From Tetmemena sp. SeJ-2015 (Eukaryota; Ciliophora; Spirotrichea; Sporadotrichida; Oxytrichidae), in contig JAJKFJ010021168.1 of NCBI GenBank assembly GCA_027382625.1, positions 1 through 64,000 on the forward strand: DNA of 64,000 nt. The letters are read 5' to 3'. The position numbers and the translations under genes were made by a program. The notes under the pieces are model-generated. The model had not been told where the DNA came from, made no database searches, and saw nothing but the letters and a program-made list of their open reading frames with translations. This document shows, in pieces, positions 10,344-41,987 of this stretch. Every line of letters begins with the position of its first letter. Position 1 is the stretch's first letter.

Positions 10344-13079
10344 ATGAGCAAGAGACTAGACAAGAAAACTAAGGTAAGTCCAAATTTCTGATCTTATGCC
10401 TTATGAATTGTTCCCTTTCTAATTTTTTAAATATTCTCTTTATTTATACTATAAAGATTTAAACATTCAGCTAGCTCTTTGACATAAATTAAATTTCTAT
10501 TCTGGTTTTGAGACGATGTTAAATTTCTGATATCATAGAAGATGAAAAAACTTAAGAGAAACTAAGACTACGACGATGAGGAAGAAGATTAGGACAGCTA
10601 CTCTGATGAGGAAGTTAAAATTCCTCAACGTAGAGGCAAAAAGAGAGGTAAGTGAATTCCGTTGAAAATTATAGAAAATTTTCTAAAGATTTTGAGTTTA
10701 AATAGAGACTAAATTTGTTGGCTTATAGATGATCGCAAACACAAATCTGGTAAATTCAGAGGCAGTAAGTTCATCGATATGGAAGCCGAAGAAGCCTCAG
10801 AGGCTGAGAGTGAGGATGATGGCGAGCTAAATGAAGAAGAGAGGGCTGTAAAGAGAGATCAGCATCAGAGCCAATACTATAAGGAAAGTGAACTTAAGCC
10901 AAGACAGAAAGGTCTAGACAAAACTATGATTGAGAAGATGGAGCAAAAGTATCAAGGCATGGAGGAGCAAGAAGAAGGCTAAGGTTATCTCAGTGATGCT
11001 TTTTAAGAAGATGAGGACGATATAGATGATGGAATGTTCCAAAATGCGAATCTTCCAAGTGTTGAGGATCCAAGCTTATGGCAGGTAAGAGTGAAGAGAG
11101 GTTGCGAGAAACAGGCAACTCTTCAACTCATGAACAAAGCCATTCACAAGGCGAGAGATGGCTAACACTTGAGCATTTTGAGTGTTACTTGCACTGATAA
11201 AGTCGAGGGCTTCATCTATGTTGAGGCATTCAAGGAGATCCATGTAAAGGAGGCGATTTCTGGCTTATCTGTTATCCTAGGTAGCAAGTGCTTGCTAGTC
11301 TCTAAAGAAGAAATGCCAGGCATCTATCAAAATGATAAGCAGCAAATTCAACTTGAAACTCATCAATGGGTCAGGATAAAGCAAGGTCTCTATATGAATG
11401 ATCTCGGCTTAGTTGAGGCTATCTAAGATGATAAGGTCTATCTCAGACTCATTCCTCGTCTTGACTTGAGTCAGCTTCAAAATAACTCAAAGCAAGGATA
11501 GTAACAGCAGAAAAAGAAGAAGGTAGTTTTCCAGAGACCTCAGCAAAGGATGTTCAATAGATCTCTCATCCCCAAAGAGCAAACAGTTGAAAGGGGCAGA
11601 TTCACAGGCTCTCTATTGAATGGAGAGTTTGACATTTACAAGCGCCAATATTTCAGACATGGATTCCTTTTCAAGCATTTCCCCATCAAGCAGCTTCAAA
11701 TTGATTATGTTCGTCCCACAATCGAAGAAGTTTAAACCTTTGCTCAGCACTTGAAAAAGAAAGATGACACCTAATCTAGCTTGATTGAAGATTCAATAAC
11801 AAGTGAGGAACTCTTGGCTAAAACTTTCATGTCTAAGGGCTCTGCAGATATCGGAAAGGGAGACAAGATAAGAATAGTGTAAGGTGATCTGACTGGCATG
11901 GATGGCTAAGTCATTTCTATTGAGAACTCAGATGTCTTGTTCAAACCCTCTATTGAAGATATTGGAGATCTCAGAGTCCCGATCGAAAATGTCTCCAAGT
12001 TCTTTGACCCTGGCGATCAAGTCAAAGTTTCTGACGGAAAATTCAAAGGTGAGACTGGTCTTGTTGTTAGCTTGGACGAAAAATTTGCAAGTGTTTCTCT
12101 CTCTAAGAACTTAAGAGAAGTTAGAGTCCTTGCTAATTGTCTAAAGTTAAAGACAGAGATTGATCAAAGTTTTATGCCAGAGGCAGGCTTGATAGATAAG
12201 ATGAAATTTGGATCTTATTCTGCAAATGACCTGATTAACTACAACTCAAAATATGTCGGAGTAGTTTTGAAGGTTGATGACGACTTCCTCAGGGTTATCA
12301 GCGATCAAGGGCAATTGCAGAATGTGAAGTACTCGGAGATTAACAAGAAGATCGATTATTCAAAAAGAACGACAGCCATTGATTCCCTTCGTAATACTAT
12401 CTACTCAGAGAATGTTGTCCGTGTCACTTAAGGCCGCTTTAAGGGCAAGAAAGGAGTGATTAAGTTCATCAATAAGAATACACTCTTCTTATGGGACAAA
12501 GAGTTTCATCAGAGCAATGGCTACTTTGTGGAGAACTCAAGAAATGTAGTCATTCTCGGAGATGAGCATATGAAGCAAGAAGACAAGGAAGGTGGCGCAG
12601 TTGCGAATTCAAACAGAAGATACAGAGATACTTTGAAGGGAAAGGAGATTTAGATCACAAAGGGTCCTTACAAGGGCTTCAGAGGAAGAGTCTGCAGGGC
12701 TGATGATCGCTTAGCTATAGTCGAGCTCAGCTCAAAGTGCCAGAAAATTCCTATTGAAGTTTCTCAAATCATAGAAGTTGATAAGAAAGAGTTGGGAGGT
12801 ACAACAAGAGGCGGCAGAGGAGGAGAGAGCGCCTATGGTGGTCAAACAGCGTATGAAGGTGGGAAAACTCCTATGCAGTACAACACTCCTTCCTACTATC
12901 CTCACAATACTCCAGGGTGGGGAGCTGGTGGCTCTCCAGCATTTGGCACAGAGTACGATCACAACAACGGTGGAATGTCTCCTGGATTTTCTAGACATGG
13001 CAGTGAGCACTATCCTAACAGACCTCAAACCCCTAAGGATAACTGGTAAGTTAAGACCGAAGGCGGCTTTCAAGGTTGA
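10344..13079 (+). CDS. SPT5: Transcription elongation factor SPT5
   Basis: SPT5 with SPT4 forms DSIF, which binds RNA polymerase II and controls pausing and processivity in the nucleus. Exons: 10344-10373, 10539-10647, 10729-13079, with GT..AG introns of 165 and 81 nt. The N-terminus is short and acidic ('DYDDEEEDQDSYSDEE'). Next comes the NGN domain ('DPSLWQVRVKRGCEKQA', about residues 150-250), then KOW domains ('GDKIRIVQGDLTGMDGQV', 'GDQVKVSDGKFKGETGLV', 'VVRVTQGRFKGKKGVI', 'QITKGPYKGFRGRV'), and a Gly-rich C-terminal repeat region with 'TP' sites typical of CTR phosphorylation. The frame contains many TAA/TAG codons at Gln positions and ends at TGA 13077. No IES is needed. Family assignment is firm from domain order and length (about 820 aa). 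Confidence 0.95.
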
Positions 13080-15565: not shown

Positions 15566-16100
15566 GTAAATCATTTTATGTTACCTTAATGTCTTTGATA
15601 GTATTGTATTTAATATAAATAACTAAGTAGATTTACCCTTCAATAAATACTTAATTAAGCCATTGAGATTCAATTAGATACAATTATTTTTGTATCTCTT
15701 AATAGATATCGAGAAAGAAGGTTAACTAAGTAGTGAAAACCAAATCCTTTTGTAGTAAATTTCTAGGTTGCTCATTGTTTTGAACTTAAAATAACTCAAG
15801 AGCAAATCAATTTCTGAGGAAGAGAAATCAAGTGAAGGCGGAAAAGACATTCTCAATGTTTTCACTGCCATCAATAACAAATTTACGGATAAGTACTGCG
15901 ACTTTGTTTACACTTATTTTATCAAAATAATATATTAAAATGATTACTTTCCTAACTCAATTCAAATCCCTAGTTTCTCAGGTAATATTTCTTAAACTAA
16001 TTAATTCATCATAGATTCAATTTTACGGGTCAGAAACCTTAGCTGCAAATATAGCCAATCACATTACTTAAATCAGCTTAAGAAACTTATAATTCTTTGA
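15566..16100 (+). CDS. Start-less coding block (displaced MDS?) with unknown product
   Basis: With TAA/TAG as Gln this is one uninterrupted frame of about 178 codons, from just after a TGA near 15560 to TGA 16098-16100. It contains no ATG at all. The sequence is helical and hydrophobic ('YLIKPLRFNQIQLFLYLL', 'KYCDFVYTYFIKIIYQND'), like HEAT/ARM-type helices. It looks like the 3' part of a gene whose 5' MDSs lie elsewhere. No family assigned. Confidence 0.5.
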
Positions 16101-16149
16101 ATTCTTATTCTTTTATTAATTTTTTGTAGAAAATGTAAATCTAAATTAA

Positions 16150-18082
16150 ATGGAAAGTTTAGCAGATTTAAAGGCCCATCTAGAATAACCCCTAGAGAGA
16201 ATAGATAATTTATCTCAAGAGATTACTCCAGTTTAAATTCTGAACATAAATATTGGAGTTTTGGGACATATAGATAGCGGTAAAACTTCGCTCTGCAAAG
16301 CATTAAGTACAATTGCTTCAACAGCAGGTTTTGATAAGAATCCCTAGTCTCAAGATCGAAAAATAACCCTTGATCTAGGTTTCTCAGCATTCATTATCAA
16401 GATGCCAGAATGGTTCAAAGAAAAACACTAATCCAAATTAAATAAATAGCAGGAGTATTTGCAGTTCACTTTAGTAGATTGCCCAGGTCATGCTTCTCTC
16501 ATGAAGACCATAATAGGAGGAGCTTCAATCATAGATATGATGATGCTCGTTGTAGATTGCTAGAAGCTTATATAAACTCAGACTGCTGAGTGTATAGTCC
16601 TCGGAGAAATACTCATGGAGAAATTAATAGTTGTCATGAATAAAATTGACATGCTTGGGCAGGGAGGAGATTCAAGTACCGAGGAGAAGAGAAGAGGGGA
16701 TTTGATTGAAGCATAGACTAAGAAATTGCGTTAAAGATTTGGCTTTACAAGATTTGGAAGCGAGGTGCCTATTATACCTATCAGTGCAAATCCTAGAGGA
16801 AATGAAGAGCCAAATAGTCAAGAGGAGTTGAAATAATCTGAAATTAGAGCTCCACCTACAGGAATAGACTCTTTAATTTCCTCCATTCTTAATAACTTAG
16901 ATATTCCAGAGAGATTGTCAAAGTAGATGCCATTCATGTTTTCAATTGATCACTGCTTTTAAATCAAAGGTTAGGGAACAGTTCTGACAGGCACTGTTCT
17001 CTCAGGCCAAGTCAAAGTAGGTGACACCATAGAATTACCAGCTTTAAAGCAAGAAAAGAAAGTGAAGAGCATGCAGATGTTTAGGAAACCTGTTTAATAA
17101 GCGAAATAAGGTGATAGAGTTGGTATATGTGTTGCTCAGTTGGATGCGACTCTAATAGAAAGAGGAATAGCATCTGAGCCAAGAAGTATTTAGAGCACGG
17201 ATCTCGTTGTAGCCTTGGTTAAAAAGATTCCCTACTTTACTGAGGAAGTTAAAAACAAGTCTAAATTCCATATAACTATCGGCCACTAAACAGTGATTGG
17301 CCAGTGTATATTCTTCACTGCAAAAGACCCTTCTGACATGGAAAACTTTTAAGCATCTTTCAATAAAGGCGCTCTTATCAATAACTAGAATATTGTCACG
17401 CTCGATACCAGTATTGAATATCAGTTCGTTGACTAAATATAAGCTTAGAAACTTACACAGTAGAAAAAGCCTTCATAGTAAGAGGAAGAGAAAAAATCAT
17501 CATCTTAGGAATAATCTATGGCTAAGGTTCCCATATACTACGCAGTCATTAAGCTAGAGAAGGAAATCTTTCTTCAGCCTTAATCTCTTTTAATAGCTTC
17601 AAAGCTTGATAAAGATATTGCTGTAAAGCAGTGCAGACTAGCATTTTATGGCCAGGTTATTTCCATTTCAAATTCTCATATTTAAGGAAACATTTTCTAA
17701 TTTCGTTATATTTTTTTAAAACCTGGGAAACTAACATGATTAACTCTACAACATTAAAATTTCAAAGGAGAAAGTGAAATACGGAAAAGTAGAGAGGGTT
17801 ATGTCTCGCACGCAAGTTCTAATCAAGGACTTATTCAAGAAAGAAACAGCAATCGAGGTCTTCATGAACAAGGCGGTTGTGCTCACAGAGTTATATTCAA
17901 TCGTTTAAATTAAGTTTGAAAATTTGTCAGGGAAGATTATTGGTACTTTTGGTAAAAGTGGAAAGTAGAAAGTTGATCTGGACAGAGACCTTACTGTAGA
18001 TGAAGCTGAAAGAATTATTAACTCTCAAGTAGAGCTCAAAGTCTTAGTTTATTCTAAAGAACTTGCAAAATTAAGAAAGTGA
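16150..18082 (+). CDS. EEFSEC: Selenocysteine-specific elongation factor (eEFSec/SelB)
   Basis: eEFSec is the GTPase that delivers Sec-tRNA to UGA codons. ATG at 16150. The GTPase domain has the P-loop 'GHIDSGKTS' (the eEFSec form), 'VDCPGHASLMKTI' as the G3 loop and 'NKID' as G4. Next is domain 2 ('GQGTVLTGTVLSG', 'VKVGDTIELP') and an eEFSec-type C-terminus ('LFKKETAIEVF', 'GTFGKSGKQK'). The protein is about 640 aa, close to the family length. A 13-bp IES at 17729-17741 (pointer AACT) must be removed to join 'FLKPGKL' to 'YNIKISKEKVKYGKV'. TGA at 18080. Presence of the gene implies that UGA is both the sole normal stop and a Sec codon here (inference from the family). No selenoprotein was recognised in the window. 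Confidence 0.93.
17729..17745 (+). other. 13-bp IES with pointer AACT
   Basis: AACT at 17729-17732 and 17742-17745. The insertion carries an in-frame TGA; removing 13 bp restores eEFSec in exactly the conserved region. It is among the shortest IESs in the window. Confidence 0.85.
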
Positions 18083-36100: not shown

Positions 36101-38913
36101 ATAAAGGAAGGCAAAAAAGAGGCTCTTCTGCATGGTCTTTTGTCATTCTTCAAGCATTTCTTCGATCACTTCACACTTCCTCCCTATGATAAACTTCCAA
36201 GAGATCATTTCCTCGAGTGGAGATCATTCGTAAAGGATCTGCTTTCTACTTGTCTTAACATTTCTCAAGTCTGCAAGGGACTTATTTCCAACAATAGACA
36301 TATATAAATGGGAAGAAGCTTGAGATTTGCTTCTTAAATGATTGAATGGCCTAATGAGTGATGCTGAAGGCGTTGATGGAGCAATCGGAGAGATAAAGGT
36401 AGATTGTAGAGGACACCCCATTAAGATGGATGGAATGGGAGAAGGAGTAGAGTATGAGGACTATGAGAATCTTATTTTAGTTGGAGTGTGGCTAGCAATT
36501 AAAGAAGACGGACTTCTACTTTTCAACTTACTCAAGTGGTTGTTATCTTCTATATTAATGATTCCTTTTATATGGTTAGAATTCCCTCTTAATAGAGAAG
36601 ATGACACCAAGCTTTTAGTAGATTCAGACATCCATCAACTGCATGTTATAATATTTTTAACTGTGTGATAACTTCTTGGATATGCTTTTCAATTTCAAGC
36701 ACAGAGGAGCCATTGAGAAGGCAGCAGAAACTTTCTCCCTCTTTTGTCAAAAGCTACTTCAACTGAATCCCCACAATCATGCTCACATTGAATCAAACTT
36801 ATTATGCCTTTTTATTTGACTGCGCTTACTACAAATCACTGCCTGGAAATATGCTTGATAAGGCTCTTGAAAAGATCACAACAGAAAACCTAAGTACCAT
36901 CCTTAGAAGGTCTGCAGGTATCCCACCTACTATAATTGCTATCCTCAGAGCTGAGCCAATCTCAAGTGAGCCTGTCCTTCTCAACAAAACTTATTTTAGA
37001 TAAAAATAGAGATTGCTTTAACTTTAGACTTCTTGCTTGAACTAGCAAAGAGCTAGAGTGATAAAGAAGATTCAAAGATTCATGCTCTCAATATCATGAG
37101 GTTCATCTTCTAAGATTTACATAGGATAATAATTTCGGTTTCTTAAATAGAACTGTAATAAGTGCTGGTTTTGAAATTGATTATTATATCTGAGAATTTA
37201 AAAGAAAATAATTCACAAATACATGCTCATTCTTGTTGGATTACCTTTGAATACTAGTTTAAATTAATAATTTTCGTTATAAATATATTAAAATGTCAGC
37301 CGCTGATGCCAGCCTCCCCATCTCTCAAAAAAAAAAACGCGATTTTACAGAGTTGGCACGGGAGGTCGACCCAGCCGGTTTGGCCACGGTGGCTCCAGCC
37401 TCGGCAGCGGCACTCAGCCGCCACCCTCCACAGCACTCCAGCTTGCTGACGAGGGAGCTGTCGCTCCAAGGATCCTCGGCCATCTTTAGCTCTCACCTCG
37501 GCAAGTCCGAGAGACCTCACCCAAGGTCAGTGAGAGAGCCGAGTCGTCAGCAAGCTGGAGTGCTGTGGAGGGTGGCGGCTGAGTGCCGCCGCCGAGGCTG
37601 GAGCCACCGTGGCCAAACCGGCTGGGTCGACCTCCCGTGCCAACTCTGTAAAATCGCGTTTTTTTTTTGAGAGATGGGGAGGCTGGCATCAGCGGCTGAC
37701 ATTTTAATATATTTATAACGAAATTATTAATTTAAACTAGTATTCAAAGGTAATCCAACAAGAATGAGCATGTATTTGTGAATTATTTTCTTTTAAATTC
37801 TCAGATATAATTACATTCCTCAAATTTTACTTTACTTTACTTTTCTTTACATCTTCTAAGATGCAATGCTTCGTCATGATGTGCAGAGATATATCACTCC
37901 AGCTATGATCCTCGCCACAGAGTCATTCTCTTCTAATTCTTGGTCCATCAGAAACTCTGCTCTCATGGCTTTCACTGCCCTGACTAAACGTATTCTCAAC
38001 AATCTACATGTCTAAGATTAATTTGAATAAGAAATTACACCATTAAGTATTTGTAGATCAAGACCTCTCTAGAACTAAGGGTCTTTCAGTTTTCGATTTC
38101 TTATCTAAGTATGAGGAGCTTAGCGAATACTTCATCTCTAAACTAAAGGAAGGACTTGCCATAGAAGGCAGAAAAATCAAGAAAGAGGATAAAGATAAGC
38201 AAGACTTAGTAATCTATAGCATCCTTCTTTTGATATCGAGACTTATCCCTTCTTTCTAACTAGTTGAGTAAGCAGAGGACGAGGAAAGTAAATAGAATGA
38301 AGATAAGCAGAGACAGCAAATCAATAGATTTGAGAAGATAACTGAGTATGTTTAGCTCATAAAGACTTATGGAAGCAATGCCACTTATTTTGTGAGAAAG
38401 ATTAGCGCGCAAGCTCTGCTACCATTAGTAAGGTTCGATTCCTATATCGATGAGATTCAAGCTTGCTTCTCAACAATTTAGCAATCAGTCTAAGAAGGCT
38501 AAAAGAAGCTGAGATAGAATCAAGCGCATGGCCTATTCATTAGGCTTCACTATAGAAATGTTTAGTGAGAGTAATTTTATAATCACGTCTTTGAGTCTGC
38601 ATACTTCTAATATAGAGATATTGTCACTAAGCAACTTGGTCCAGGTCACTACGCTGACTTACCTACTCAAAGATCAAGAGAGGAAGAAACAATTGCTTCT
38701 CTGTTTGAGAACTTCGACTTCGTCTAATATTCGATGTGCGAGAAAGCTAGCTACTCAAGAATTAGCTTAGCCCTCTATGTGAAGGCACTTTGCAAAGTTG
38801 TACTTAAATTAGGAGACTAGAGCCCTCTCGGAAAGAGTCAAGAATTCTTGCAAAGATATAGAACACGATTCGAGCTTCTCTTAATTATATAAGTTGAAGG
38901 TTACCTTATTTGA
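33152..38913 (+). CDS. THADA/Trm732-like HEAT-repeat protein (DUF2428), interrupted by many IESs
   Basis: THADA/Trm732 partners the FtsJ-type methyltransferase that 2'-O-methylates position 32 of tRNAs. After IES removal the frame carries the family core: 'ILRRSAGIPPTIIAILRAEP', 'KIHALNIMRFIFQD', 'SFSSNSWSIRNSALMAFTAL', 'RKISAQALLPLVRFDSYIDE' and 'QNQAHGLFIRLHYRN'. About 1,150 codons are visible. IESs: 33525, 34129, 34399, 34450 (1,453 bp, containing a complete reverse-strand gene), 36337, 37104 (746 bp, containing a palindrome), 38017 and perhaps 38564. One 32-nt intron (GTGAAG..ATATAG, near 36046-36077) is also present. Frame changes at about 36,550-36,640, 36,815 and 37,010 remain unsolved. 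No ATG is seen at the 5' end (open after the TGA at 33149), so an earlier MDS or exon is missing. It ends at TGA 38911, rather early for the family. Confidence 0.85.
33525..33555 (+). other. 26-bp IES with pointer AGCTC
   Basis: AGCTC at 33525-33529 and 33551-33555. Excision joins 'HEHLLKL' to 'VMSENFKTGLDCIEII' in frame and removes a TGA. Confidence 0.85.
34129..34175 (+). other. 41-bp IES with pointer AGAATG
   Basis: AGAATG at 34129-34134 and 34170-34175. Excision joins 'STWTQVRM' to 'YSFEILCRFPDDYPLF', restoring the THADA frame. Confidence 0.85.
34399..34410 (+). other. 8-bp IES with pointer AGTA
   Basis: AGTA at 34399-34402 and 34407-34410. Removing 8 bp joins 'QKSDAQ' to 'QKQIYFLEQSGQQ', the phase needed for the next IES junction. 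A sequencing indel is an alternative explanation. Confidence 0.6.
34450..35910 (+). other. 1,453-bp IES with pointer TGAAGCTT, enclosing a complete gene on the other strand
   Basis: TGAAGCTT at 34450-34457 and 35903-35910. After the 8-bp IES upstream is removed, excision joins 'FLEQSGQQVEA' to 'SAMFFNLLFKKCLSHL' in frame within THADA. The interior carries the CID gene at 34708-35557 on the minus strand. Confidence 0.8.
34708..35557 (-). CDS. CID-domain protein, RPRD/Rtt103-like, nested inside a THADA IES
   Basis: CID (RPR) domains bind the phosphorylated C-terminal repeat of RNA polymerase II. ATG at 35557 ('MSSIKIKSFKQMQL'). The CID is seen in 'EVSQFIMTNAPHAP', 'IPKIAQKWATLALHVGKPKK' and the diagnostic helix 'VAFVYLANDLIKRSM'; then 'VIKVLKMWMQKSIFD' and a Gln/Glu-rich coiled-coil tail with 'KIKAEPIDNQ', the layout of RPRD1/CREPT. 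Two one-base frame changes (about 35505 and 35415) are needed in the N-terminal part. TGA is at 34708, possibly followed by another exon. The whole gene sits between two pointer-matched THADA segments and on the opposite strand, so developmental excision of the THADA IES and retention of this gene must be compatible, for example by processing both from different copies of the locus. Confidence 0.75.
36337..36357 (+). other. 16-bp IES with pointer AATGA
   Basis: AATGA at 36337-36341 and 36353-36357. Excision joins 'SLRFASQM' to 'SDAEGVDGAIGEIKV' and avoids a TGA. Confidence 0.8.
37104..37862 (+). other. 746-bp IES with 13-bp pointer, containing palindrome B
   Basis: CATCTTCTAAGAT at 37104-37116 and 37850-37862. 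Excision joins 'HALNIMRFIFQD' to 'AMLRHDVQRYITPAMILATE', a junction inside the most conserved part of THADA. This is the best-supported large IES in the window. Confidence 0.95.
37183..37811. repeat. Palindrome B: near-perfect 270/268-bp inverted arms with a 91-bp loop
   Basis: Arm 37183-37452 matches the reverse complement of 37544-37811 with three differences (one A in an A-run, one T, one A/G change). As in palindrome A, each arm is an AT-rich leader of about 110 bp, then an ATG (37293 on +) and a GC-rich open frame ('MSAADASLPISQKKKRDFT') pointing to the loop. The sequence is unrelated to palindrome A. Confidence 0.97.
38017..38046 (+). other. 25-bp IES with pointer ATTAA
   Basis: ATTAA at 38017-38021 and 38042-38046. 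Excision joins 'LNNLHVQDQ' to 'VFVDQDLSRTKGLSVFDF' in frame. Confidence 0.7.
38564..38572 (+). other. Possible 6-bp IES with pointer AGT, spanning an in-frame TGA
   Basis: AGT at 38564-38566 and 38570-38572. Removing 6 bp deletes a TGA within otherwise open THADA sequence ('LHYRNVQ' to 'QFYNHVFESAYF'). A single-base error is equally possible. Confidence 0.35.
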
Positions 38914-38992
38914 AACAAGTGAATAAATTGAAATGCACGATTTAAACAGCTCTTACAAATTTCTTGAGTTAAAATTATTAACAATCTAAGTA

Positions 38993-39536
38993 TGCTTCTA
39001 CAAAGGACCTTGCAAGTAATCTTGTATTCTCGCTCTATATCTCGAGCTTTGAGACGATAAGCTGCACAAGAATTAAAGCAGCAAGCTCTTAGGGAATGCC
39101 TCCAGCAGCTAAAACCACAAATTGGCCGGATGAGCTACCAGGCACGTATGTGTCATCTTGGCAGTAGCTATAATCGTATTTCGCAGATCAAGTTACTCTC
39201 AAGGGACCAGCTTAGACTTAGACAAGTCAGGGTAAGAACGTCTTCGTGCTTTTCTACTTCGCCTGGTGTCACTCCTGCCAAGAGGAGTATCCCATCTTCA
39301 GAGACTCTTGGAATAGTATCATCTCTCAGTTCCCCGACTAGGTTTCCTTTGTGAAGGTAGACTTGGATAAGTGTGGAGATTTGAGAAAGGTGTTCCAGGT
39401 TAACAGATCACCCACCTTCGCATATTTAGGAACAGGAGGCCCTGCAAAGACAATTTTCTTCAATAAGTACAACAAGAAATTAACTCTCGAAAATATGACC
39501 AATTTTATTAAATCTCAGATTGTTATAGGATCGTGA
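38993..39536 (+). CDS. Thioredoxin-like protein with CHSC active site, probably organelle-targeted
   Basis: A thioredoxin fold is indicated by 'NVFVLFYFAWCHSCQEEY', containing a WCxxC redox motif (Trp-Cys-His-Ser-Cys), then 'VSFVKVDLDKCGDLRKVFQV' and a Pro loop 'RSPTFAYLG' (the cis-Pro position). An N-terminal reading from ATG 38993 ('MLLQRTLQVILYSRSISRAL') is Arg/Ser-rich and amphipathic, like a mitochondrial presequence, but a one-base frame change near 39085 is needed to connect it; otherwise the frame starts at ATG 39095 ('MPPAAKTTNWPDELPG'). TGA at 39534. Redox function is inferred from the motif. It begins only about 80 bp after the THADA stop. Confidence 0.7.
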
Positions 39537-39647
39537 GCCAATTTTAGAGCGTAAATTTATTTAATAAGCTAAGTTATTTCAAGTTATCTCGAGTAAAGAG
39601 ATTATATAGACACTTTAATTGAAAATTATCCTTAATAAAAGATTTTA

Positions 39648-40151
39648 ATGGTTGAAAGCTAGGAGATAAAAGCTGAGCTAAATGAAGATCCCGTATGGGA
39701 TTTGACTTCAGAGAAGTTCAAAGGCATAATCGAGAGATAACTAAGGAATATTCCCTAATAGAGTGATAGAGAGGGAGATATTCAAGAATTGAAGGTATTA
39801 AATTGGAACACACTTTGCCAGAGGTACACAGATGGATTTCATGAAGAAACTTAGAAATGGGTGACTTGGGACCATCGCTTTCCTTACATAAAGTAGTAGC
39901 TTACTTAATTAGCCCTTAATATCTTCATAATATGTCTTCAAGAGATAGATATGCAAGATGAGTACAACGATTTCTTGGCAACTTAGGGCTATGAAGGTTA
40001 TATAGGCATGAAAATTGATGGCATCATGGGGATTATTCATCCTTATTTGAGAACAAGTGAAATTGAAGCAGTCACTCCTGTTGAAAAGAGATTGTTTGAA
40101 AACTCTAAACCCTACTTTAAAATTACCAACATTATTCTAAAGAATAAGAAT
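39648..40151 (+). other. Nocturnin-like MDS1
   Basis: ATG to the first pointer GAATAAGAAT (40142-40151), which recurs inverted at 40753-40762 as the start of MDS2. Confidence 0.95.
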
Positions 40152-40979
40152 AGCTATAAAGAAATAAAGTTAGAATCCATTAAGAATATTTCAAATCTTA
40201 CAATTTTCATATTGAGTTTAACCAAAACTATCTGATTGGACACTTTCTTCACAAATTTTAAAGCACTTTATGGTTGTAAACACTCATCTAAAAGCTAAAG
40301 CGGAATTCAGACCTCTAAGGATAAACCAGGCTAACTTTCTTATCGGAGACTTATCTTCTCTAAATTTGCCTAATGAGGAGTTCACTCATGCTCTTCTTAA
40401 AAATGAAGATCCAGGTGAAGAGCCAATTAGTATCATCAAAACCAAATTTTAGAGCGCTCTTGAAGAAGCTTTTGGAGATGAGAGGAAACATTTCACCACT
40501 TTCTACTTCAGAGAAAGAAATGATAAAATATGTATGAAGGACGAAGATCTTGACAAAAAGAGATGCTTGCATTTTATCAGTAAATCAGATCATATGGCAT
40601 TAGTTGTATTTTTCTAGATTTTATGATTAATTAGCAAATTTACACTATTCGATCACACTTTATTAAAAATGGATCTTCATTGAAGTCGCCTGCAAGAAGA
40701 GTGAACTTTATATTATTTTTTAATTGCTCTCCAATAGATAGCACAGCCCATGATTCTTATTCATTCATAAAATATTATGTCAAAGTCAAACTAAGTCAGC
40801 TACATATTACCTTAAGCAATTTCTTTTAAAATTTTCTTCACAAGAAGACGAAAAAGCACTTCAAAATCTATTAAGAAAAGAGAAAGAGAGGGTGGAAGCG
40901 TTCAGAGAACTATCGACTACATCTTTTATTAAGGCAAGTCTGTTATAAAACCAATTGCTTATCTAGATGTGCCTAAGGA
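39648..40979 (+). CDS. Nocturnin/CCR4-family (EEP) nuclease, scrambled gene of nine MDSs
   Basis: EEP-family enzymes of the CCR4/nocturnin/Angel type are Mg-dependent phosphodiesterases (deadenylases or NADP(H) phosphatase). Read straight, the locus breaks repeatedly. Joined by pointers in the order of the nine MDSs listed below, it gives ATG to TGA with exactly 981 nt (327 codons). The joined frame carries the family motifs in order: 'LNWNTLCQRY' (Asn), 'ICLQEID' (metal-binding Glu), 'MVVNTHLKAKAEF' (NTH), 'LLAGDFNEDP' (GDFN, created by MDS6 and MDS7), 'RTIDYIFY' (MDS8) and 'SKSDHMALV' (catalytic SDH, MDS9). The family assignment is firm; which branch (nocturnin, CCR4 or Angel) is not settled. 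There is no leucine-rich repeat domain, so yeast CCR4-type is less likely. Confidence 0.95.
40228..40254 (+). other. Nocturnin-like MDS3 (27 bp)
   Basis: From CTATCT (40228-40233, shared with MDS2) to TTTCTTCACAA (40244-40254, shared with MDS4). Encodes 'YLIGHFLHK'. Confidence 0.95.
40260..40349 (+). other. Nocturnin-like MDS5
   Basis: From AAAGCACTT (40260-40268, shared with MDS4) to GGAGA (40345-40349, shared with MDS6). Encodes the NTH motif. Only 5 bp separate it from MDS3. Confidence 0.95.
40402..40518 (+). other. Nocturnin-like MDS7
   Basis: From AATGAAGATCCA (40402-40413, shared with MDS6) to AGAGAAAGA (40510-40518, shared with MDS8). Encodes 'SALEEAFGDERKHFTTFYF'. Confidence 0.95.
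40537..40626 (+). other. Nocturnin-like MDS9 (3' end)
   Basis: From AAGGA (40537-40541, shared with MDS8) to the TGA at 40624-40626. Encodes the catalytic 'SDH' motif. Confidence 0.93.
40670..40732 (-). other. Nocturnin-like MDS6 (63 bp, inverted)
   Basis: On the minus strand, from GGAGA (plus 40728-40732) to AATGAAGATCCA (plus 40670-40681). Encodes 'GEQLKNNIKFTLLAGDFNED', the GDFN metal-site motif missing from the plus strand. Confidence 0.95.
40736..40762 (-). other. Nocturnin-like MDS2 (27 bp, inverted)
   Basis: On the minus strand, from GAATAAGAAT (plus 40753-40762) to CTATCT (plus 40736-40741). Encodes 'NKNHGLCYL'. Only 3 bp separate it from MDS6. Confidence 0.93.
40833..40861 (+). other. 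Nocturnin-like MDS4 (29 bp)
   Basis: From TTTCTTCACAA (40833-40843) to AAAGCACTT (40853-40861). Supplies 'HKKTKKHF' before the NTH motif. Confidence 0.95.
40879..40979 (+). other. Nocturnin-like MDS8
   Basis: From AGAGAAAGA (40879-40887) to AAGGA (40975-40979). Encodes 'GGSVQRTIDYIFYQGKSV', the family's IDYI motif. Beyond 40979 lies a decayed copy of MDS9 sequence. Confidence 0.95.
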
Positions 40980-41133
40980 TGAAACAATAAATCCAAATTA
41001 AGAGATGCTGGCCACATATCAACTAGCCCTCAGATCATATGCAAGAATTTGTCACAAATTATAGAAATTATTGTAAATCAATTTAAAAAATACTGAAAGA
41101 CTTATTAGTCAATTTAACTCGTTAGTTCTTCCT

Positions 41134-41987
41134 TCACTTCTTTAATAATTTCAGCTTAATTTTCTTATTTTTATCCTCCTTTCTTTTCTATTAAAGCTGT
41201 TAATTCATTTTAGAATGCTAGGACTTAATCTAATTCCTGCTTTGACTCCACCTTGGTTTTTATTTTTAGAAGAGTCTGTTAGAACACTTCTTCTTGTTCA
41301 TCATCTTCTTCTTCTTAGAAAATTAAAATAAGAACTGTAAAGAGTCTGCTAACAGCAATGAGCTTTCAACAGAGGCCTTACAATAAGTAGCAAATTGCTT
41401 AGGATTCTAGTTAAGGCAGTCAAAAGCTTGCTAGTTGAAGTGGTTCATTTATTCTCCATCTCTGCATTAGATCATATGTCGACTCAATTCTTTGTTTTCG
41501 TATAATATCCTCCATATGAACTAGATCAGCTCTAAAACGAACCCATCATGGACTTTTTAGCAAGATTTGTTTTGCAGTAAATAGGAGTAGTCTACAACTC
41601 CAGTATCAAAGTCGATTAAAGGATGGTAGATCTTATTCAGAAACTTCACTCTTGGAAACTAGAAAGGAAATTTCAGAGGAAAGATCACGATGAATTTGAA
41701 GATACCACCTTCATAATAGCCACTGCGTACAATTAGAATTCCATGAAACTCTATTAAAATAAGTGTAAGATCACAGATTCTTTTTACTCATTATAGGTCT
41801 GTCTGCTTAAGGAATTTCTGGCGTCAATAGCATTCCACTTGGCAATCCAATGCTAATCAGAGTCTTGCTAACAATATAATTAATTAAGCTCAAATGGCTT
41901 ACTATAGCTAACTTAGTAGTACTTCTCTTTAAATTAAGAAAGCCAGCTCTGAACTATTTGCTTCTTTGTCGAACAATTCTGATGCAT
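41134..41987 (-). CDS. E2-like (UBC-fold) protein, probably an inactive variant of AKTIP/FTS type
   Basis: From ATG 41987, after removal of a 38-bp IES (pointer GAGT), the frame shows a UBC fold: 'FHGILIVRSGYYEGGIFKF', 'IFPLKFPFQFPRVKFLNKIY' and 'HPLIDFDTGVVD'. The HPN tripeptide is HPL, and the catalytic-Cys position after the 'G-x-[IV]' step is occupied by Asp-Tyr ('TGVVDY'), so it lacks the usual active-site Cys. This and the 'YEGGIF' block fit the AKTIP/Fused-toes class, which acts in dynein adaptor (FHF) complexes; the exact orthology is inference. The C-terminal half is Lys/Gln-rich. TGA is at 41134. Confidence 0.8.
41748..41789 (-). other. 38-bp IES with pointer GAGT in the E2-like gene
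   Basis: GAGT on the minus strand (plus ACTC at 41786-41789 and 41748-41751). Excision joins 'SRQTYNE' to 'FHGILIVRSGYY' in frame. Confidence 0.8.

Follow-up and report, generated by a model that had tools for sequence, protein, structure and literature searches.

A probable scrambled germline gene for a nocturnin/CCR4-type nuclease, divided into nine segments, in a hypotrich-type ciliate

The locus and its neighbourhood

The window, that is the whole stretch of DNA that was analysed (64,000 nt), contains a locus of 1332 nt (39648-40979) in which the parts of a nuclease reading frame lie out of order and partly on the opposite strand. Nine segments (MDSs) can be delineated in the germline order 1-3-5-7-9-(-6)-(-2)-4-8. 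The odd-numbered segments follow one another in order, the even-numbered segments are displaced and two of them are inverted. The nearest neighbours look like ordinary eukaryotic genes: a thioredoxin frame, which ends 111 nt before the locus, and a UQ_con frame downstream. The features are as follows.

38910-39536, plus strand: thioredoxin frame
39648-40151, plus strand: MDS1, 504 nt including pointer 1; ATG start; N-terminal half with the NT and QE motifs
40228-40254, plus strand: MDS3, 27 nt; pointers 2 and 3; placed by pointers and frame only
40260-40349, plus strand: MDS5, 90 nt with GGAGA as pointer 5; NTH at 40279-40287
40350-40401, plus strand: spacer between MDS5 and MDS7 in the GGAGA solution; open in the frame of the gene, with words in common with MDS6 and without GDF; GC 0.35, similar to segments
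40402-40518, plus strand: MDS7, 117 nt; pointers 6 and 7
40537-40626, plus strand: coding part of MDS9, from pointer 8 to TGA; SDH at 40585-40593
40670-40732, minus strand: MDS6, inverted, 63 nt with GGAGA (40670-40707 with AGTTCACTC); GDFN at 40679-40690
40736-40762, minus strand: MDS2, inverted, 27 nt; pointers 1 and 2
40833-40861, plus strand: MDS4, 29 nt; pointers 3 and 4; placed by pointers and frame only
40879-40979, plus strand: MDS8, 101 nt; pointers 7 and 8; IDYI at 40912-40923
40980-41078, plus strand: germline DNA after MDS8 that appears to hold a decayed copy of MDS9 in a shifted frame; TCAGATCAT recurs at 41030; PHINQPSDHM at 41012-41041
from 41134, opposite strand: UQ_con frame

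The assembly to which the window belongs, as the first 64 kb of contig 2247, contains 67 matches to C4A4 repeats, 11 of which lie no more than 30 bases from a contig start, and 150 scored matches to DDE_3 transposases among 921 candidates. Together with the use of TAA and TAG as Gln codons, these features fit the germline of a hypotrich-type ciliate. Euplotes was rejected as the source because TAA and TAG, found in frame here, are stops in that genus; an oligotrich source might fit too, and partial germline data for one oligotrich are reported in passages of PMC10901763. A search of the assembly (146 Mb, 5213 contigs) at E <= 1e-3 revealed no further copy of the gene, either scrambled or unscrambled, and no somatic copy was found there. 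Other frames in the window include one close upstream of the locus that matches the C-terminal repeats of Trm732 (38008-38568, plus strand) and an unbroken frame of 805 amino acids that matches SPT5, with the NGN and several KOW domains (10662-13079, plus strand). An open frame under table 6 (15832-17739, plus strand) matches eukaryotic SelB, the selenocysteine elongation factor (euk_SelB_III, 1.7e-30), and TGA may therefore serve as both stop and selenocysteine codon in this organism.

Pointers and the joined frame

Each junction between consecutive segments is marked by a short repeat (the pointer), and both copies of all eight repeats sit where the segment order demands (8/8 junctions). Two candidates are listed for pointer 5, the one originally chosen and the alternative that we prefer.

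Pointer 1: GAATAAGAAT, 40142-40151 (plus) and 40753-40762 (minus)
Pointer 2: CTATCT, 40228-40233 (plus) and 40736-40741 (minus)
Pointer 3: TTTCTTCACAA, 40244-40254 and 40833-40843
Pointer 4: AAAGCACTT, 40260-40268 and 40853-40861
Pointer 5, original choice: GGAGA, 40345-40349 (plus) and 40728-40732 (minus)
Pointer 5, preferred alternative: AGTTCACTC (9 nt), 40379-40387 (plus) and 40699-40707 (minus)
Pointer 6: AATGAAGATCCA, 40402-40413 (plus) and 40670-40681 (minus)
Pointer 7: AGAGAAAGA, 40510-40518 and 40879-40887
Pointer 8: AAGGA, 40537-40541 and 40975-40979

Further copies of CTATCT, GGAGA and AAGGA are present within 39500-41200. Joining the segments at these pointers, with GGAGA at the junction 5/6, gives 981 nt that encode 326 amino acids followed by TGA (40624-40626); this stop, codon 327, is the only in-frame TGA of the joined sequence. 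Four TAA and eight TAG codons are read as Gln, and MDS1 contains nine in-frame TAA or TAG codons and no TGA. The five alternative frames of this joined sequence carry between 2 and 17 TGAs each. The joined protein presents NT, QE, NTH, GDFN, IDYI and SDH in this order, which we take to be the motifs of the EEP nucleases. In the germline DNA the minus strand encodes GDFN (40679-40690), and IDYI (40912-40923) lies 3' of the stop codon of the gene. The original prediction, which was made from the sequence of the window, had described all of this: the eight pointer pairs, the 981-nt frame from ATG to TGA without internal TGA, the motif order upon joining, the germline positions of GDFN and IDYI, the displaced even segments with their two inversions and the three very short segments (here measured at 27, 27 and 29 nt), and the reanalysis reproduced it throughout. 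Introns and trans-splicing were considered as sources of the joins and rejected, as no join requires either.

Homology of the joined protein

Among solved structures the best match of the joined protein is nocturnin (E 3.9e-14), in a single alignment that spans residues 46-324 and crosses all eight junctions; in a comparison with nocturnin 75 of 296 columns are identical. The protein also matches the Pfam family Exo_endo_phos with 36.0 bits (7.9e-9), above the gathering score of 24.5 bits, and the three matches in a scan of NCBIfam are all far below cut-off. The assignment to the nocturnin/CCR4 family that had been proposed is thereby supported at the level of an EEP nuclease of nocturnin/CCR4 type.

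Three frames of the unjoined DNA stay below the Pfam cut-off. In a scan at E <= 1 the frame at 39648-40235, which comprises MDS1, reaches 12.8 bits for Exo_endo_phos, below the cut-off, and the frames at 40237-40533 and 40750-41361 have no match. Among solved structures the MDS1 frame alone matches Ccr4 (3.3e-6) and CNOT6, and nocturnin is not found at 1e-3. When nocturnin is compared directly with the raw DNA by tblastn, its N-terminal part is found in MDS1 (5.8e-5) and the MDS8 region with IDYI at 40885-40998 (2.5e-4, for a 1.5-kb subject). Weak hits follow: a stretch from MDS5 to MDS9 (0.027) and, at 0.37 each, the minus-strand GDFN peptide and a peptide resembling SDH that lies downstream of MDS8.

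Coherence of the joins

The repeats have to be judged against the repetitiveness of the locus itself. Within its 1332 nt, 45 pairs of identical 9-mers occur in direct or inverted orientation; the shuffle mean is 24, and 1 of 100 shuffles reached 45. A single pointer is unremarkable because identical 9-mers are abundant in the region, and at every junction further in-frame repeats of at least 5 nt exist. Repeat length was therefore rejected as proof: shuffles contain about half as many identical 9-mers, yet such repeats are common anyway. It is the homology of the joined product, and not the repeats alone, that demonstrates the coherence of the arrangement.

A blind solver aligned nocturnin to the raw DNA of 39648-41133 on both strands, with jumps permitted only between identical words of at least 5 nt. 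At a jump cost of 15 the solution contains pieces of segments 1, -2, 5, -6, 7, 8 and 9 in that order, i.e. seven of the nine, together with three spurious stretches, and the MDS1 piece ends at 40007. This solution scores 144; six other stretches of the window reach 37-58, six shuffled nocturnins 50-67 and the reversed nocturnin 49. The controls, which covered costs 15, 18 and 22, stayed well short of the score observed at the respective cost. The seven-segment solution appears at one of eight jump costs, and cost 15 was singled out after the outcomes of the others were seen. Low costs (6, 8, 10 and 12) overfit with many tiny pieces, the path at cost 12 holding segments 1, 5, -6, 8 and 9 in order, while costs of 18, 22 and 26 retain the strongest pieces only, so that MDS6 and MDS9 are lost and the path reads through from MDS5 to MDS7. 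The GDF-containing part of MDS6 is accordingly recovered at cost 15 and not at 18 or above, whereas MDS2 lies within a solver piece at both 15 and 18, a piece that overruns to 40645. MDS3 and MDS4 were never recovered by the solver.

Judged by a codon model that was trained on other long frames from the window, the joined frame comes first of the six for MDS1, 5, 6, 7, 8 and 9, with a tiny lead for MDS7 (0.132 versus 0.131). For MDS2, MDS3 and MDS4, which comprise 8-9 codons each, the joined frame is not at the top. Base composition separates segments from spacers: the GC content is 0.204-0.205 in the spacers (186 nt) and 0.357 in the segments (985 nt), in a comparison that left out the disputed 5/6 stretches, MDS6 and 40627-40669, which may be 3' UTR. 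AT-rich eliminated DNA between segments is a feature of scrambled spirotrich germline genes. Such observations also bear on the idea that an assembly error joined and flipped the fragments of an ordinary gene. The sequence stems from a single assembly and the inverted block is short, but an error of this kind would not place a repeat at each breakpoint, leave the spacers AT-rich and restore the frame at 8/8 joins, and we regard it as barely credible.

Ambiguity of the junctions

At five of the eight junctions (1/2, 3/4, 4/5, 6/7 and 7/8) no in-frame repeat exceeds the pointer in length. At junction 2/3, where the pointer has 6 nt, two in-frame repeats of 7 nt exist but insert 102 and 120 nt, and the original join is the best of eight that were scored. 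Shorter repeats score slightly above the 181 of the original solution at 7/8 (192), 1/2 (188 and 183) and 6/7 (183); the longer pointer was retained at these junctions despite those scores. At 8/9, with its 5-nt pointer, four 3-nt joins score 183-192 against 181 and were set aside, since repeats as short as 3-4 nt occur too often to permit a choice.

The junction 5/6 is also ambiguous. Besides GGAGA, the repeats AGTTCACTC (9 nt) and CTCTTCTT (8 nt) also give joins that are in frame and open, with products of 329 (990 nt) and 331 amino acids, respectively. In the comparison with nocturnin AGTTCACTC attains 59.0 bits, CTCTTCTT 56.8 and GGAGA 56.2, and the Smith-Waterman scores follow the same order (190, 185 and 181; another 5-nt join also reaches 185). 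ANGEL2 is matched best with CTCTTCTT (27.4 bits), then with AGTTCACTC (23.4), and is not found with GGAGA at 1e-3. Base composition can be compared as well. The 20-nt stretch GCAATTAAAAAATAATATAA, which is coding under GGAGA, resembles spacers with a GC content of 0.10, whereas the 29-nt stretch that it replaces, coding under AGTTCACTC, resembles segments with 0.34; the corresponding likelihood ratio favours AGTTCACTC over GGAGA by 68-71:1. The predicted peptide around the junction reads FLIG-DLSSLNLPNEEF-TLLAGDFNEDP with AGTTCACTC and FLIG-EQLKNNIKF-TLLAGDFNEDP with GGAGA; with CTCTTCTT it contains NEEFTHALLAGDFN.

The original solution, with GGAGA and a protein of 326 amino acids, is nested within the reading of the locus as a scrambled gene and does not compete with it. 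Its join is in frame and open, the Pfam score is 1.2 bits higher than that of the 329-residue product (36.0 versus 34.8), and the disputed stretch is also coding-like in the codon model (mean 0.31 versus 0.225 for the alternative), which does not separate the two. Against it stand the commonness of 5-nt repeats at the locus, the lower nocturnin score, and the composition of what would be kept and what would be dropped. We therefore consider this exact solution unlikely. From sequence comparison AGTTCACTC is probably the pointer, GGAGA has a minor chance and CTCTTCTT a smaller one still, and MDS5 more likely ends at 40387 (with AGTTCACTC) or 40398 (with CTCTTCTT) than at 40349. The predicted product accordingly has 326, 329 or 331 codons plus stop. 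Of the nine-segment solution the order and frame hold, while its 5/6 boundary was probably set too early, and the description of the gene as completely solvable was overstated, given that other in-frame joins exist and that the two junctions with 5-nt pointers, 5/6 and 8/9, are uncertain.

The stretch between MDS5 and MDS7

The ambiguity at 5/6 is linked to the nature of the DNA between MDS5 and MDS7, which shares AGTTCACTC and CTCTTCTT with MDS6 in the same order. The longest shared word (9 nt) is matched in 63 of 2000 shuffles and 58 of 2000 window stretches, and the chained words in 80 and 47 of 2000, respectively (p 0.02-0.04). Alignment scores are at chance level, with 102 of 500 shuffles reaching the local and 1059 of 2000 the global score. 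The stretch may thus be a relative of MDS6, judging from the ordered words. A spacer that shares words with the segment it displaces allows more than one join to keep the frame, and this sets a limit to the solving of scrambled genes from germline sequence only.

Could this stretch be used? If it were sometimes kept by alternative processing, the gene would yield a further protein that lacks the active-site motif GDFN. The read-through product without MDS6 is indeed open (328 amino acids, no GDFN), and passages of PMC4684698 describe alternative segment use in Oxytricha. The nocturnin score of the read-through product, however, is 159 compared with 181-190 for the joined versions, and open stretches are not rare under a code with one stop: 3465 of 4919 stretches of 17 codons sampled in the window are free of TGA, so that the open frame of the spacer is weak evidence. 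Such alternative processing appears very improbable, and the same holds for the more elaborate notion that the stretch is an alternative cassette and that a programmed inversion would set whether each somatic chromosome copy carries an active or an inactive nuclease.

Traces of duplication and decay

An apparent trace of a duplicated segment follows MDS8. The sequence there attains a local score of 51 against MDS9, compared with a shuffle mean of 27.8, and none of 500 shuffles reached it. With the comparison anchored at the pointer over 70 nt, a similarity as high as that of this flank to MDS9 occurs in 1 of 2000 stretches of the window and in none of 2000 shuffles; with a 40-nt anchor the signal is weaker (p 0.0255). 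Four scoring schemes gave 2, 5, 11 and 0 of 2000 shuffles and 0, 6, 17 and 0 of 1612 window stretches. The peptide PHINQPSDHM (41012-41041, plus strand) resembles PSFNYPSDHL of nocturnin at 60% over 10 residues (E 0.37), and since it is encoded in a frame other than that of MDS8, the copy looks decayed. The sequence after MDS8 hence looks like a decayed, frame-shifted copy of MDS9.

Traces of a further copy, in inverted orientation, are weak: the sequence after MDS2 compared with the start of MDS3, and that before MDS2 compared with the end of MDS1, give p values of 0.026-0.09. Five of 16 anchored comparisons fall below 0.05, those besides the MDS9 one at 0.022-0.0325; the signal before MDS4 was gone on retest (0.15 and 0.46), and the low retest values at 3-4 and 4-5 carry no weight, as the sequence compared there continues into the adjacent segment. 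Separate comparisons of spacers and flanks with segments include several at chance level, namely IES7-9 with MDS8 (297 of 500 and 796 of 2000 shuffles), IES1-3 with MDS2 (484 of 500), IES4-8 with segments 5-7 (493 of 500) and the MDS6 flank with MDS7 (434 of 500). IES2-4 compared with the MDS1-3 region was reached by 167 of 500 shuffles, and its reverse complement compared with the end of MDS1 by 111 of 500.

An apparent decayed copy and an abundance of short repeats are also what would be expected of a dead locus, in which partial copies of a nuclease gene, some in tandem and some inverted, are never unscrambled and the joins have been picked among many short repeats. The motifs are intact, though, 326 codons run without a stop, five of the eight pointers are the longest in-frame repeat at their junction, and the search of the assembly at E <= 1e-3 found the gene nowhere else. 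A dead locus is very improbable in view of this.

Interpretation

We put at about 90% the probability that the locus is a scrambled germline (micronuclear) gene of a hypotrich-type ciliate, encoding an EEP nuclease of nocturnin/CCR4 type in nine segments that are joined at pointers. While the somatic nucleus develops, the DNA between the segments would be removed and the nine segments joined, two of them after flipping. Each join would take place at a short repeat, one copy of which ends segment n while the other starts segment n+1. We infer that the cell uses these joins by an RNA-templated route; RNA-templated joining is known in Oxytricha. Seen in this light, germline sequence and one distant homologue were enough to recognise the gene as scrambled and to propose most of its joins, without recourse to the somatic genome.

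As to how the arrangement arose, the order and orientation of the segments suggest a local partial duplication that would have occurred once in inverted form, as the source of segments 2 and 6, and once in direct form, as the source of segments 4 and 8. The inverted copy is thus the most likely origin of segments 2 and 6, and the direct copy that of segments 4 and 8. The copies would then have decayed in complementary places, and as a consequence the odd segments would be needed from one copy and the even segments from the others.

Comparison with known systems

The motif order of the joined protein is that of nocturnin (PDB 6mal and 6bt1), yeast Ccr4, CNOT6 and ANGEL2, with which its sequence groups it in the nocturnin/CCR4-type class. 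A limited literature search found no paper on nocturnin together with Oxytricha. As a gene structure the locus is an ordinary, well-formed member of a described scrambling class that is known in large numbers. The pointer word 12345678 65 21 34 78 reduces to the empty word, with 12 and 56 as return words and 34 and 78 as repeat words; this class of words is described in passages of PMC5940158, according to which such operations explain 96% of the scrambled chromosomes of O. trifallax. Passages of PMC9797194 report that 13.6% of Tetmemena gene loci need translocations and/or inversions, that typical pointers measure 2-20 nt, and that the spacer between segments n-1 and n+1 is expected to resemble segment n.

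The odd-even genes of Oxytricha trifallax and Tetmemena sp. treated in these passages (PMC9797194, PMC5940158) have the same layout of odd segments in order and even segments displaced, and the pointers found here fall within their typical 2-20 nt; a reducible pointer word is shared with most scrambled chromosomes of O. trifallax. They differ from the present gene in that its even segments are not gathered in one cluster but split alternately into an inverted pair (6 and 2) and a direct pair (4 and 8). The exact order 1-3-5-7-9-(-6)-(-2)-4-8 was not encountered in the compared passages of the two papers.

The duplication-and-decay model of scrambling goes back to Gao et al. (2015), and support for it is reported in passages of PMC9797194. 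The apparent copy of MDS9 after MDS8 and the ordered MDS6 words in the stretch between MDS5 and MDS7 agree with the model as outlined there, whereas the pattern as a whole differs from it in asking for two source copies, one inverted, with weak traces, and one direct. The locus thus offers a compact case for the origin of odd-even genes by duplication and decay, and one that suggests two source copies of opposite orientation.
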